Of a stretch of DNA of 37,234 bases, positions 12,930 to 23,285 are shown one piece after another. The DNA comes from Bacteroidota bacterium. Lineage in GTDB: Bacteria; Bacteroidota; Bacteroidia; Bacteroidales; Prolixibacteraceae. Position 1 is the stretch's first letter. The number at the start of each line of letters is the position of its first letter. The stretch is from the NCBI GenBank assembly GCA_030698405.1, contig JAUYMU010000040.1, forward strand, positions 1-37,234. The letters run 5' to 3'. The position numbers and the translations under genes are program-made. Under the pieces are notes generated by a model. It was given only the letters and a program-made list of their open reading frames with translations. It searched no databases and was not told the origin of the DNA.

Positions 12930-12995
12930 AGCTTTTCAGGATTGAAAATGAAAAGGATACGGTTTTTTGCTTTTTCTCCGAAAGCGTCAAAATCC

Positions 12996-13177
12996 AGGTT
13001 CGAACAGGCAGGTCTTCTGACTCATCCCCTTTTTAACTCCTTCCCGCCCAAATTGAAATGGACAGTGGTACTTTGTTAAAAAGTTATACAGGACTTACAG
13101 CAGCGGGAACTGCACAGGAATCACCCTTTTTACCGGATTCACCTGTTTCCCTTTTACATTCCGAAAATCGAAAACCT
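12996..13177 (-). ncRNA. Cobalamin (adenosylcobalamin-class) riboswitch
   Basis: Read on the minus strand, the region shows the conserved cobalamin aptamer pieces in order. First come the closing P1 arm AGGTTTTCGA and the box GGGAAACAGGTGAATCC. Then come the core TTCCCGCTGCTGTAAGTCC, CCACTGTCC, and finally GAAGACCTGCC (13007-13017 region) with the P1 partner TCGAACCT at 12996-13003. This is a well-known B12-sensing leader. In the bound state it represses the downstream uptake genes. It precedes the surface protein, BtuB and BtuG genes, which fits perfectly. A covariance-model search would give exact ends. Confidence 0.93.
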
Positions 13178-13186
13178 ATTCGCCGA

Positions 13187-13194
13187 CAAATGTA
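13187..13194 (-). promoter_or_regulatory. Candidate -7 promoter element of the riboswitch operon
   Basis: On the minus strand this reads TACATTTG, an exact TAnnTTTG. It lies about 10 nt before the 5' arm of riboswitch P1, so transcription would start right at the aptamer. No good -33 partner was found. Confidence 0.5.
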
Positions 13195-18411: not shown

Positions 18412-21135
18412 TTACTTACTGTGTCTGATATTCGCCTGAGCTGCAGCCAAACGTGCAATCGGCACGCGGTAAGGCGAACAGCTAACGTAGTTCATTCCCA
18501 ATTTGTCGCAGAATTCAACAGAACTTGGTTCGCCGCCATGTTCGCCGCAAATACCAATTTTCATGTCCGGTTTGGTCATTCTTCCACGGTTTACACCAAT
18601 TTCCATCAAAAGCCCAACACCGTTTTGATCCAGCACCTGGAACGGATCTTGTTTCAGGATACCACGGTTAAGGTAATCTGGCAGGAATTTGCCGGCATCG
18701 TCGCGCGAGTAACCCAAAGTCATTTGGGTTAAATCGTTGGTTCCGAATGAGAAGAAATCGGCTTCGGCGGCAATGTGGTCGGCTGTTAAGGCAGCACGTG
18801 GAATTTCGATCATGGTACCTACCTGGTAGTCGATACGGTCGCCCACTTCAGCAAATACCTTTTCGGCAACACTGCGGATGATCTCAGTCTGGTTTTTTAA
18901 CTCGGCAACTGTACCAACCAACGGAACCATGATTTCAGGACGTGCGTCAATACCTTTTGCTTTCAGGTTCATGGCAGCTTCGATGATCGCGCGGGCCTGC
19001 ATGGCTGTAATTTCAGGATAAGTAATGCCCAAACGGCAGCCACGGTGACCCAACATTGGGTTAAACTCGTGCAGCGATTCCACTTTTTGTTTTACCTGTT
19101 CAACCGAAATACCCATTTCTTTGGCCATAACAAGCTGGTTGGCTTCTTCGTGAGGAACAAATTCGTGCAATGGCGGATCGAGCAAACGAATGGTCACACC
19201 GTAACCGGCCATCGCTTCAAAAATACCTTCGAAGTCGCTACGCTGCATAGGCAACAGTTTTTCGAGCGCTTTTTCGCGTCCGGCAACATCGTCGGCCAAA
19301 ATCATTTCGCGCATTGCTTTGATGCGGTCGCCTTCGAAGAACATGTGTTCTGTACGGGTCAGACCGATTCCCTGAGCTCCGAAATTGCGGGCAATCTGTG
19401 CATCTTTTGGTGTATCTGCATTGGTACGAATCGACATCCGTTTGTATTTATCGGCAATTTCCATCAATTCGCCAAAGTATCCGCTCAATTCAGGATCGAT
19501 GGTAGCAATTTTGCCTTCATAAACTTCGCCGGATGTCCCGTTCAGCGAGATGAAATCACCCTCCTGAAATATTTTTCCGCCCACAGTCATCGTGCGTAAC
19601 TTGTAATCAATCTGAAGAGCACCTGCACCCGAAACGCAGCATTTACCCATTCCACGAGCCACGACAGCAGCGTGCGAAGTCATACCGCCACGGGCGGTTA
19701 AAATACCTTTGGCAACGTTCATTCCGCGAAGGTCTTCAGGAGAAGTTTCAATACGCACCAGAACTACGTTTTTGCCTTGTGCCACCCATTCTTCGGCCTC
19801 GTCGGCAAAGAAAACAATCTGGCCGGTTGCTGCACCCGGAGAGGCAGGTAAACCTTTTGCCAAAACTTTGGCCGCTTTAATCGCTTTTTTATCGAAAACA
19901 GGGTGTAAAAGTTCGTCTAATTTTATGGGTTCAACGCGGAGCAAGGCAGTTTTTTCGTCGAGTAAACCTTCTTTCAGCATGTCGATGGCAATTTGCACCA
20001 TTGCAGCGCCGGTACGTTTTCCGTTGCGGGTTTGCAGCATCCACATTTTACCTTCCTGAATGGTGAACTCCATATCCTGCATGTCCCTGAAGTAAGTATC
20101 AAGTTTTTTCTGAATGGTGAACAATTCATGGTACATCTGCGGCATTGCTTCTTCGAGCGAAGGATAATTGGCGGCACGATCTTCTTCAGTAACACCGGCC
20201 AATACAGCCCAGCGTTTTGAACCTTCCAGGGTAATTTGCTGCGGGGTACGAATACCGGCTACAACATCTTCGCCCTGTGCATTGATCAGGTATTCACCGT
20301 TGAAAATATTTTCTCCGGTTCCGGCATCACGGCTAAAGCAAACGCCTGTTCCTGATGAAAGTCCCATATTACCGAATACCATTGCCTGCACATTAACGGC
20401 TGTTCCCCATTCTTCAGGAATCTGATTTAGCTGGCGGTAATAAATGGCGCGGTCGTTCATCCAGCTGTTGAATACGGCGCTAACTGCGCCCCAAAGCTGT
20501 TCGTATGAATCTTCAGGAAAATCGTGACCTGTTTTAATTTTAACCGCTGCCTTGAATTTTGTTACCAATTCTTTCAGTGCATCAACGGAAAGTTCGTTGT
20601 CGTTGATAACACCTTCTGCATGTTTTACTTCTTCCAGAATTTCTTCAAACGGGTCGATGTCGGTTTTTGATGTTGGTTTTAAGTCGAGAACAACATCTCC
20701 GTACATTTGGATAAAACGGCGGTAGCTATCCCAAACAAAACGTGGGTTTCCGGTTTTTTTTGCCATTCCTTCCACAACGGTCTCGTTCAATCCGAGGTTC
20801 AGGATGGTATCCATCATACCAGGCATTGAAGCGCGTGCACCTGAACGTACCGAAACCAATAGCGGATTTGAAGCATCACCGAATTTTCCGCCGGTTTGAC
20901 TTTCCACCTGAGCGATGGCTGCTTCAACTTCATCCTTAAGGAGTTCTATCACTTTTTCACGACCCAGTTTATTGTAAATGGCACATACTTCAGTAGTGAT
21001 GGTAAATCCAGGAGGAACTGGAACGCCGATAAGGTTCATTTCGGCAAGGTTTGCACCTTTACCACCAAGCAGGTTTTTCATGTCAGCTTTACCTTCAGCT
21101 GCACCATTTCCAAACGTGTAAACGTACTTTGTCAT
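18412..21135 (-). CDS. ppdK: Pyruvate, phosphate dikinase
   Basis: The enzyme interconverts pyruvate, ATP and phosphate with PEP, AMP and PPi in the cytoplasm. The 907-residue product has the N-terminal nucleotide-binding domain ([28 protein letters not shown], then [22 protein letters not shown]). The central phosphohistidine domain reads [20 protein letters not shown] with the catalytic His at residue 488. The C-terminal TIM-barrel domain has [17 protein letters not shown] and [12 protein letters not shown] with the catalytic Cys. The length is that of the Bacteroidota/protist form, slightly longer than the 874-residue clostridial enzyme. The gene stands alone, with the repeat hairpin at 18300 as probable terminator. 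Confidence 0.97.
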
Positions 21136-21362: not shown

Positions 21363-21417
21363 TTAACAATCCTTAACGATCGTTCATAGAAGTTAACTGA
21401 TTGCCACACTATATTTG
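21363..21417 (+). promoter_or_regulatory. Promoter of small RNA 1 with four 10-bp-phased direct repeats
   Basis: TTAAC at 21363, TTAAC at 21373, TTCAT at 21383 and TTAAC at 21393 are spaced exactly 10 bp. A 12-bp spacer follows, then the exact -7 element TATATTTG at 21410-21417. The last repeat takes the place of the -33 element, which is how OmpR/PhoB-type activators work. The layout is identical, base for base in spacing, to that at 21555-21609. Confidence 0.7.
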
Positions 21418-21420
21418 TAT

Positions 21421-21513
21421 CGTAGTTAAAGATAAGCAATAGAGCATTAGTTTTTTTCATAGAAATAGGTTTGGTTAGGTAAGAAAAGGATGGTTGGGGC
21501 CATCCTTTTTTTT
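21421..21513 (+). ncRNA. Small RNA candidate 1 (about 93 nt)
   Basis: Transcription is predicted from about 21421, just after TATATTTG. It would end at the intrinsic terminator GGATGG-TTGGGG-CCATCC followed by eight T (21488-21513). No ATG-initiated frame of note lies inside. The body shares with candidate 2 the blocks GCAATAG, a T-run leading into TTTCATAGAAA, and a GTTTGGTT...GTAAGAAAAGG segment directly before the terminator stem. The flanking genes are both on the opposite strand, so this is not the leader of either. I cannot match it to a named RNA family. Confidence 0.65.
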
Positions 21514-21554
21514 GTGCTTTTTTTTACTGAATTTCAATTTTAAAAAAGTTAGAA

Positions 21555-21609
21555 TTAAGAATATTTAACGTTGGTTCAGATGCGTTAACTTTATTCAGTA
21601 CTATCTTTG
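21555..21609 (+). promoter_or_regulatory. Promoter of small RNA 2 with four 10-bp-phased direct repeats
   Basis: TTAAG at 21555, TTAAC at 21565, TTCAG at 21575 and TTAAC at 21585 are phased every 10 bp. After a 12-bp spacer comes TATCTTTG at 21602-21609. The third repeat is degenerate (TTCA) in both promoters. Total length from first repeat to the end of the -7 element is 55 bp in both. Confidence 0.7.
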
Positions 21610-21612
21610 ACT

Positions 21613-21702
21613 CATGCAATAGGAGTAAGGGTTACATTTTTTTTTCATAGAAAAAGTTTGGTTTTGTAAGAAAAGGGGTGAAGAGATTCATCCCTTTTTT
21701 TT
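21613..21702 (+). ncRNA. Small RNA candidate 2 (about 90 nt)
   Basis: Predicted from just after TATCTTTG to the T-tract of an intrinsic terminator with stem GGGGTG / CATCCC (21675-21694) and eight T. It is a paralogue of candidate 1: the T-run, CATAGAAA, GTTTGGTTTTGTAAGAAAAGG order is kept, while the terminator loop and the 5' end differ. A local stem TTTTTC-ATA-GAAAAA is possible in the middle. It ends 16 nt before the permease gene that converges on it. Confidence 0.65.
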
Positions 21703-21718
21703 CATTTCATAAGCGTGT

Positions 21719-23233
21719 CTATTGCCGTAGTTTACTTTTCCTGATTCCGTAAGCGAAATATATTGCGATCCCCAAAGCCATCCAAACAATTAACCGCAAC
21801 CATGTATCCAAGGGCAGTGAAAGCATTTGCAGAACACAAATTCCTGCGCCCAAAAGCGGTACAAACGGCGAAAATGGAGTTTTGAAAGTTCTTTTAATAT
21901 CGGGTCGTTTTACTCTGAGAATAACAATACCAACACATACAATTGCAAATGCAAGCAATGTTCCGATTGAAACCAGTTCGCCAAGAATATTGATTGGAAG
22001 AACTCCGGCCAAAACAAATGCAACTGAACCGGTAATGATCGTGCTTGCAAAAGGTGTTTTAAAGCGGGGATGAACCTTCGAGAAAATAGGTGGCAACAAT
22101 CCGTCTTTCGACATTGCAAAGAAAATACGGGGCTGTCCCATCAATAAAACCAGTATAACTGAACTTAAACCTGCAATTGCGGCTATTTTAATTATTGGCC
22201 GTAACCAGAACAAGCCTTTGCCCATTGCATCAACTCCCACGGCTATAGGGTCTGACACATTCAGAAATGAGTAACTTACAATGCCTGTCAATACGATGGC
22301 CATCAGTATGTACAAAACTGTTGAAATACCCAGAGATCCCAGAATACCGATTGGCAAATCTCGTTGCGGATTTTTTGATTCCTGTGCAGCCGTCGAAACT
22401 GCATCAAAACCGATGTAGGCAAAGAAAATAACTGCTGCCCCTCTGAAAATGCCGCTCCAACCGTAATGTCCCCATTCGCCTGTGTTTTCAGGAATGAAAG
22501 GGTGCCAGTTGGCTTTGGTCACGAAAAACGCGCCAATGGCAATGAACAGGAGAATGATAGACACTTTAATGATGACCATCAGGTTGTTGAACCTGGTCGA
22601 TTCGCGGATCCCGACAAGCAGCAAAATGGTGACTGCGGCTACGATGAACATGGCTGGCAAATTTAAAATGGCCGATAGATGTGGAAGGTTTTCGGTGAAA
22701 ATTCCTGAATCCGCAAGATTTTTTGTCAGTTCAGGAGTCAGGGTTTTCCAGCCAATCTGCGGAATATCGACCAAAACTGTTCCAAATGCTGCTGTAAACT
22801 GAGCAGGAATAAAGATGCCGAAATCTTTCAGAAAGCTTACCACATAACCCGACCATCCGACAGCAACGGTGGAGGCTGCAAACAGGTATTCCAGAATTAA
22901 GTCCCAGCCAATAATCCAGGCAATAAATTCGCCCATGGTTGCATAAGCGTAGGTATATGCACTTCCTGAAATTGGGATCATCGAAGCGAACTCTGCATAG
23001 CACAAACCTGCCAGAAGGCATGCAAATCCTGAAATAAGAAACGAAATGACGATTGCCGGACCTGCATACTGCGCTGCCGCCTGACCGGTAAGAACAAATA
23101 TTCCGGCGCCAATAACTGCCCCAACGCCAAGCGTGGTCAGGTTGGTGGCGCTTAACGTCCTTCTTAATCCCTGGTCAGATTTTGACTCGCTAAGTAGTTG
23201 TGAAATTGGTTTTGTGGCAAATAATTTCGACAT
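21719..23233 (-). CDS. Amino-acid permease, APC superfamily (cationic amino-acid transporter-like)
   Basis: The product has 504 residues from the ATG at 23233. The longer frame to 23284 would start upstream of the predicted promoter. It begins with a cytoplasmic stretch ending SDQGLRRTLSATNLTTLGVG, then the APC signature GAVIGAGIFVLTGQAAAQYAGPA, FLISGFACLLAGLCYAEFAS and PISGSAYTYAYATMGEFIAW. About twelve membrane segments follow, including VIFFAYIGFDAVSTAAQESK NP, a hallmark of the CAT/YfnA branch. It is expected to import amino acids across the inner membrane; the substrate is not certain. A well-formed promoter and a 13-bp inverted repeat lie directly before the start. Confidence 0.9.
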   Translation of the reverse strand: MSKLFATKPISQLLSESKSDQGLRRTLSATNLTTLGVGAVIGAGIFVLTGQAAAQYAGPAIVISFLISGFACLLAGLCYAEFASMIPISGSAYTYAYATMGEFIAWIIGWDLILEYLFAASTVAVGWSGYVVSFLKDFGIFIPAQFTAAFGTVLVDIPQIGWKTLTPELTKNLADSGIFTENLPHLSAILNLPAMFIVAAVTILLLVGIRESTRFNNLMVIIKVSIILLFIAIGAFFVTKANWHPFIPENTGEWGHYGWSGIFRGAAVIFFAYIGFDAVSTAAQESKNPQRDLPIGILGSLGISTVLYILMAIVLTGIVSYSFLNVSDPIAVGVDAMGKGLFWLRPIIKIAAIAGLSSVILVLLMGQPRIFFAMSKDGLLPPIFSKVHPRFKTPFASTIITGSVAFVLAGVLPINILGELVSIGTLLAFAIVCVGIVILRVKRPDIKRTFKTPFSPFVPLLGAGICVLQMLSLPLDTWLRLIVWMALGIAIYFAYGIRKSKLRQ

Positions 23234-23269
23234 AAAAACTATTTTTAAGGAGTTCCAAAAATAGTTTTT
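23234..23269. repeat. 13-bp perfect inverted repeat over the permease -7 element
   Basis: The arms AAAAACTATTTTT and AAAAATAGTTTTT are separated by 10 nt (23247-23256). The distal arm covers the -7 element and the proximal arm touches the start codon. The predicted transcript starts inside it, so it is more likely a DNA operator than an RNA hairpin. Confidence 0.5.
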
Positions 23270-23285
23270 TTGACGAATAAACAAA
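23256..23285 (-). promoter_or_regulatory. Bacteroidota promoter of the permease gene
   Basis: On the minus strand it has -33 TTTG (23285-23282), an 18-bp spacer and -7 TATTTTTG (23263-23256). Both elements are exact, and the predicted leader is about 19 nt. Confidence 0.65.

Follow-up and report, generated by a model that had tools for sequence, protein, structure and literature searches.

The window, a stretch of 37,234 nucleotides from a member of the Prolixibacteraceae, contains two tandem units that we interpret as the genes of twin FopS-like small RNAs (sRNAs), which would act in trans, be activated by the response regulator RprY and silence the start-codon regions of mRNAs. For this explanation as a whole, we estimate a probability of about 0.65. 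From the sequence we can read the two units and how they are conserved, the operator and its link to rprXY, an ortholog of RprY and the FopS-like core; we infer the binding of RprY, the direction of control, the signal, the targets and the repression.

Unit 1 starts with a predicted RprY operator (21363..21397, + strand) made up of TTAAC at 21363, TTAAC at 21373, TTCATA at 21383 and TTAAC at 21393, which is followed by the -7 promoter box TATATTTG (21410..21417, +) of the form TAnnTTTG, kept in the aligned units. The corresponding predicted operator of unit 2 (21555..21589, +) consists of TTAAG at 21555, TTAAC at 21565, TTCAGA at 21575 and TTAAC at 21585 and precedes the -7 box TATCTTTG (21602..21609, +). 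A direct reading gives the same 10-bp pitch, the same gap of 12 bp between the last half-site and the -7 box, and promoter blocks of 55 bp for both units (21363-21417 and 21555-21609). The initial annotation had described the tandem units in exactly these terms, including a third repeat degenerate to TTCA in both; its four TTAAC-like repeats per unit are present as well, except that the first half-site of unit 2 reads TTAAG and not TTAAC. Operators of the OmpR/PhoB type are direct repeats with a pitch of about 10-11 bp, and both arrays have this layout. Allowing up to two mismatches, the four-repeat pattern matched the window four times, representing the two sites on both strands, compared to a mean of 0.06 and a maximum of 1 in 100 dinucleotide shuffles of the window. 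When the whole genome was searched for the array together with the -7 box at the same tolerance, as had been proposed for defining a regulon, units 1 and 2 were recovered with 0 mismatches and one further place with 2, and the reversed control pattern gave 0 matches in this genome. The full array is present in the window's genome at these two sRNA genes only.

The first predicted sRNA of about 90 nt extends over 21424..21513 (+), its 5' end being estimated from the -7 box and its leader being divergent in the relatives. It contains a FopS-like core (21450..21513, +) with a U-rich CAUAG seed and a terminator hairpin, which forms part of our covariance model R2 and shows pair changes; the intrinsic terminator (21481..21512, +) was detected by a terminator scan. 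The second predicted sRNA of about 86 nt (21616..21701, +, 5' end likewise estimated) carries a core at 21638..21701 (+) with the seed variant AGTTTGGTTTTGT, which scores 75.5 bits with R2, a model that includes this very sequence. Reading the sequence directly, we found the TTTTTTCATAG core followed by a terminator hairpin in each short RNA. An intrinsic terminator had been claimed for each unit, which holds for unit 1 by the scan and for unit 2 by folding (21668-21701, +), the latter hairpin being absent from the list of the scan. The lengths agree with the roughly 90 nt of non-coding sequence proposed for each unit, and the seven open reading frames of at least 20 codons across 21400-21705 encode just 20-37 amino acids. 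Because the frames are this short and the lengths of leader and core vary, we dropped a reading as small peptides. The neighbouring genes are located on the other strand, as annotated, and code for a divergent pyruvate phosphate dikinase (18412..21135, -), the start of which is present in 21 of the 23 fetched loci of relatives (own locus included), and, as context, a convergent amino-acid permease (21719..23284, -). With short frames and metabolic genes on either side, the conserved part was not seen to fall into a known protein or mobile-element family, the finding named beforehand as speaking against regulatory RNAs. Elsewhere in the window, a cobalamin riboswitch was recorded at 12990-13194 (-, 96.4 bits).

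A 381-bp stretch of the locus had matches in 24 of 41 genomes searched, including 21 of the 23 of the genus (own genome counted). Using the core TTTTTTCATA[AG], 43 distinct units were found in 22 genomes, with one to three units per genome; they remained from 46 printed units after removing a spurious second match at locus L010 and two paralogs of the own genome on contigs C40 and C96, and the column counts of the unit alignment refer to 44 rows, including the spurious L010 row. The alignments A1 and A2 comprise 38 and 41 of the 43 units, near-identical rows having been left out. Type A seeds, as in unit 1, occur in 27 units and type B seeds, as in unit 2, in 16, and both types are present in 15 of the 22 genomes. 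The spacing TTAAC-10-TTAAC-20-TTAAC-17-TAnnTTTG is fixed throughout the 43 units; the half-sites at -47, -37 and -17 helped in choosing the -7 box, and the degenerate third half-site at -27, which did not, is kept as TTnA. The distance from the box to the core ranges from 22 to 39 nt. The consensus structure of the units consists of the terminator stem alone, in which 5 of 12 pairs have changed on both sides and 97.6% of the cells are paired. Its covariation score is 0.275, compared to 0.165 in shuffled and no more than 0.144 in slid versions. Pair types in this stem were not more numerous than in shuffles. When single sequences are folded, the seed is partly paired, to a greater extent in unit 2 than in unit 1. 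Conservation of the paralogs, two-sided stem changes and FopS-like sequence fit the proposal of paralogous regulatory RNAs. The start of a ClpB-like gene was seen in 11 of the 23 fetched loci (L013, L015, L017, L019, L020, L022, L023, L024, L027, L028 and L037).

Although an Rfam search at curated cut-offs, as suggested by the initial annotation, gave nothing at the twin locus, a permissive search revealed a match of RF04319 (FopS) over the full length of unit 1 (37.7 bits); no other place in the whole genome matches FopS better (E 1.2e-3). Unit 2 scored 23.8 bits, which is non-significant by itself (E 0.19 in 421 bases). Because both scores are below the Rfam gathering score of 56 bits, the units were not filed as FopS members. 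Both show the FopS layout of a single-stranded 5' seed followed by a terminator hairpin, and the covariance model proposed for further searches, built as R2 from 41 aligned units taken from the genus and a further genome of the family, recovers canonical FopS: at E <=1e-3 it matched 51 of 247 genomes in the order, counting the window's own, and 14 of 20 matched loci scanned exceed the FopS cut-off. These 20 came from one set among 29 new R2 loci, of which another three were scanned in a second set and six were left out. Among 20 other loci, which carry the array or have a similar layout, no FopS match exceeded the cut-off, and six of ten sources scanned permissively scored 33-39 bits with FopS, two of the six (L114 and L016) being one and the same stretch. 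Because of the permissive FopS matches and the recovery of canonical FopS loci by R2, the twin RNAs are, as judged by sequence, distant relatives of FopS beyond the reach of Rfam's cut-off.

Two weaker paralogs in the own genome, those on C40 and C96, were detected by R2 (E 2e-3 and 6e-3) and carry two half-sites in the same register with almost no leader. The six weaker extra matches of another model, R1, in the own genome were not convincing (best one a 27-bp partial match, E 0.03), and a match to unit 2 on contig C75 was rejected for want of a CATAG core. Weak FopS-like stretches of the own genome (C73:33641-33730, loci L065 and L067, and C83:8382-8412, locus L069; E 0.1-0.9) combine repeats resembling GGTTTAGTTAGG with a hairpin of the terminator type. 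The twin RNAs share with FopS, as described in the accessible part of PMC11697453, the U-rich CAUAG seed, the terminator hairpin, the multicopy arrangement and the TAnnTTTG promoter. They differ by their scores below the cut-off and by a leader of about 20-30 nt ahead of the core, which makes them longer than the approximately 65-70 nt given for FopS there, and by the full array, which was found in none of 14 canonical FopS loci examined. FopS has been published as partly similar to GibS (RF04182; PMC7366714), according to the same excerpt of PMC11697453, whereas unit 1 reached just 19.1 bits (E 2.5) with the GibS model; GibS is described with a PM2 promoter in the available text of PMC7366714, in which no matching motif was found. 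At locus L110, a canonical FopS RNA (1501-1570) is closely followed, in the same orientation, by a TPP riboswitch (1647-1748).

An exact scan for the array plus -7 box in public genomes, with one genome per species, yielded at least 115 stretches, all of which were analysed; the pattern fixes the letters of the array by construction, and the resulting counts are not prevalences. Among the stretches listed are representatives of Prolixibacteraceae, Draconibacterium, Maribellus, Marinifilum, Labilibaculum, Ancylomarina and Sunxiuqinia, and also of Pedobacter, Mucilaginibacter and a Chryseobacterium MAG. The matches listed contain 131 array sites from related genomes, 21 of which are units of the window's own genus. 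A CATAG-type core lies downstream of 84 sites, 43 sit no more than 200 bp away from a divergently transcribed RprX-like kinase gene (six of them also with a core), and 10 have neither. Among these listed matches, 33 of the 43 kinase loci have the array 41-43 bp from the start of the kinase gene, and the array is found at 43 of 54 kinase homologs versus 10 of 634 other open reading frames (Fisher p 3.5e-48, a value that ignores relatedness). A homolog of the response regulator is present in 37 of the listed kinase-array loci, and none was detected at E 1e-50 in the other six. The kinases contain HisKA and HATPase_c domains and the regulators Response_reg and Trans_reg_C, the latter judged from two examples. 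The pairing of array and kinase includes four loci of Pedobacter, Mucilaginibacter and Chryseobacterium, whose regulators are 39-44% identical to that of L147; this regulator scores 368.6 with the NCBIfam RprY model (NF051850, cut-off 370) and a Pedobacter regulator 236. Over 39 regulators, the stretch which presumably holds the recognition helix is 86-91% conserved, as are parts of the receiver domain. A phylum-wide pattern search matched 2 of 395 genomes, one being the window's own; the set searched included just five other genomes of its order.

Several further features were noted around listed arrays. A second sRNA-like type without a U-run, consisting of a ATTTTAGGGTT-type sequence and a GAGAGA/TCTCTC hairpin, lies downstream of the array and head-to-head with an RprX-like kinase gene (L117, L118, L132, L139, L163, L186, L188, L198, L199, L212 and L223). 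Secreted-looking proteins are encoded after the array and divergently from the kinase at L119, L147, L177 and L194, three of them sharing a 'DTTF'-like stretch. Locus L131, filed as Bacteroides fragilis, has an array near an RprY-like regulator gene and possibly comes from a misnamed assembly.

The regulator of the own genome scores 390.4 with NF051850, above the cut-off of 370, and its gene adjoins a kinase gene (HisKA and HATPase_c; locus L258), as known for RprXY. We assign this kinase as RprX by gene position; the NCBIfam matches shown for the kinase of L147 include no RprX model. Within the genus, GTTAA-N5-GTTAA, in which GTTAA is the half-site read on the other strand, occurs at a constant position ahead of the -7 box in all 15 readable rprX promoters; these derive from 19 genomes with an RprY match, three of which were left out and one of which has a contig ending before the kinase start. 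Among other genomes of the order, L262 carries the GTTAA pair and L259 four GTTAA at 10-bp pitch, and L275 and L277 have no 10-bp GTTAA pair at rprX. The array is thus most probably an operator for RprY, a response regulator of the OmpR/PhoB type, as far as comparison of sequences can tell. The initial annotation had placed a regulator of this type over the RNAs; comparative support now allows it to be named as RprY, which would bind and activate. The role of stress-response silencers suggested there for the twin RNAs is likewise presumptive.

The nqrA gene is reportedly a published target of RprY in P. gingivalis. The accessible part of PMC5706477 describes binding of P. gingivalis RprY to its own promoter and to stress genes, among them clpB, dnaK and groES, in line with the rprXY promoter being a predicted target here, and rprX and rprY are listed as essential in Bacteroides fragilis in the available text of PMC4072883. 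The excerpts and listings of the RprY literature covered contain neither a DNA motif nor a link between RprY and sRNAs; those on P. gingivalis RprY offer no motif matching the array, and both the sRNA targets and the operator of 10-bp pitch are absent from this part of the literature on RprXY.

We examined 18 further genomes picked from those matched by R2, each of which has a single RprY match (17 above the cut-off). In three of them, G256, G182 and G190, the 140 bp ahead of rprX contain two GTTAA at 10-bp spacing. The sRNAs of the first two carry the array, and that of G190 has, by eye, an array with a non-standard -7 box head-to-head with the kinase gene. At the one FopS-type locus examined in each of the other 15 genomes, 12 of which scored above the FopS cut-off, the full array was absent, and no such pair precedes rprX over the same distance in any of these 15 genomes. 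The proposed link between RprY and the sRNAs is therefore lineage-specific, and control by RprY does not extend to FopS in general. This joint change of operator and target favours RprY as the protein that reads the array, and it also shows that control by RprY cannot be transferred to the gut FopS. In 6 of 15 canonical FopS units (at L085, L087, L094, L100 with two units, and L104), GTTAA-N28-GTTAA starts 103-104 bp before the core, with TTTTCAC inside in five of the six and no occurrence expected from shuffles; the regulator that controls FopS in these lineages may bind there. The authors of the FopS study state that the transcriptional regulator of FopS is unknown (PMC11697453, accessible part).

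Potential targets of the seed UUUUUUCAUAG, which is antisense to CTATGAAAAAA, were sought in a sample of 400 kb of the own genome with 294 genes, 88 of which were classed by a crude rule as starting like a signal peptide. Compared to shuffled seeds, the unit 1 seed pairs better by 1.5 kcal/mol with the start regions of the 88 genes and worse by 0.5 with their inner regions (p 5.5e-6), and its pairing with start regions is better for these genes than for the others (p 1.1e-4). The unit 2 seed showed weaker effects, with p 0.015 for start versus inner regions and 0.0073 versus other genes, and an antisense control gave p 0.052, which is borderline, 0.86 and 0.16 in its three tests. The real seed outperformed every one of the 30 shuffles in 5.1% of the start regions versus 4.4% of inner regions, and just 10 of the 294 genes begin with ATGAAAAAA. 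A search with the 28-nt seed complement returned the gene itself and two paralogs, three matches compared to two for the reversed control. These effects are small and at most suggestive of pairing of the seed with start codons of genes for exported proteins. Canonical FopS represses SusC-type mRNAs at the start codon, binds RbpB and responds to bile salts, according to the accessible part of PMC11697453; the window's genome encodes one RRM_1 protein.

Combining these lines of evidence, we propose that the twin genes code for paralogous trans-acting sRNAs, distant relatives of FopS, and that an operator of four YTTAAC half-sites at 10-bp pitch, the third being degenerate, would be read by RprY. 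Upon stimulation of RprX, phosphorylated RprY dimers would occupy the two half-site pairs on one face of the helix; taking the usual spacing of a -33 element relative to the -7 box, the inner pair would lie over the region of the would-be -33 element, and both RNAs would be switched on. RprY would also control its own rprXY operon via the shorter operator copy. The RNA seed 5'-UUUUUUCAUAG...GGUUUGGUU would pair around start codons, with a preference for those of exported proteins, and reduce translation, perhaps together with an RRM-type RNA-binding protein.

Repeated half-sites reaching up to -47 of the -7 box, as in these units, are the usual layout for activators of the OmpR/PhoB family, which argues against RprY binding the array as a repressor, with the sRNAs being made when RprXY is off. 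A protein bound at the last half-site, 12 bp from the -7 box, could nevertheless block the polymerase, and P. gingivalis RprY has been hypothesised to act as both activator and repressor (PMC3646045, accessible part); we regard repression as unlikely. Since the evidence for RprY is linkage and not binding, another regulator or a sigma factor might read the array and co-control rprXY and the sRNAs. The location of 43 of the 131 listed sites beside a kinase-regulator operon, including loci with diverged regulators, and the reported presence of RprY on its own promoter (PMC5706477, in the part available) speak for RprY itself and make such a factor rather improbable.

With similarly low probability, the chief role of the RNAs may be to sequester an RRM-type RNA-binding protein as decoys instead of pairing with mRNAs. 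FopS RNAs bind RbpB (PMC11697453, same excerpt), one RRM_1 protein is encoded here, tandem copies would increase the RNA dose, and the target evidence for pairing is weak; the two seed variants, in contrast, have been kept apart, with both types in 15 of 22 genomes. Chance repeats in AT-rich intergenic DNA from which no RNA is made are contradicted by the search with the 381-bp stretch and by the array sites in public genomes, and the conservation, the fixed spacing, the stem changes and the recurrence render this very improbable. RprY-activated, mRNA-silencing twin RNAs remain our preferred explanation.

OmrA and OmrB are controlled by OmpR. The twin genes resemble this enterobacterial system, which is named in the accessible part of PMC11697453, as a paralogous sRNA pair under a regulator of the OmpR family, here a predicted one. 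A broader scenario, which we put forward tentatively and are inclined to doubt, is that the module of RprXY and sRNA, often arranged head-to-head, is old in the Bacteroidales, and that the main job of RprY there would be to drive FopS-like RNAs that shut down the synthesis of envelope proteins, as the Bacteroidota counterpart of OmpR-OmrA/B; the canonical gut FopS would then be a branch re-wired to another regulator. FopS-like RNAs are extended by the twin locus outside the Bacteroidaceae and to loci that Rfam's cut-off does not recognise. The main gain is the operator assignment, by which the little-understood regulator RprY obtains a likely binding site and a likely output. With a candidate operator of 35 bp and a small predicted output, consisting of two sRNA genes with the full array, two weaker paralogs and rprXY, the question of what RprY does in these bacteria becomes testable.
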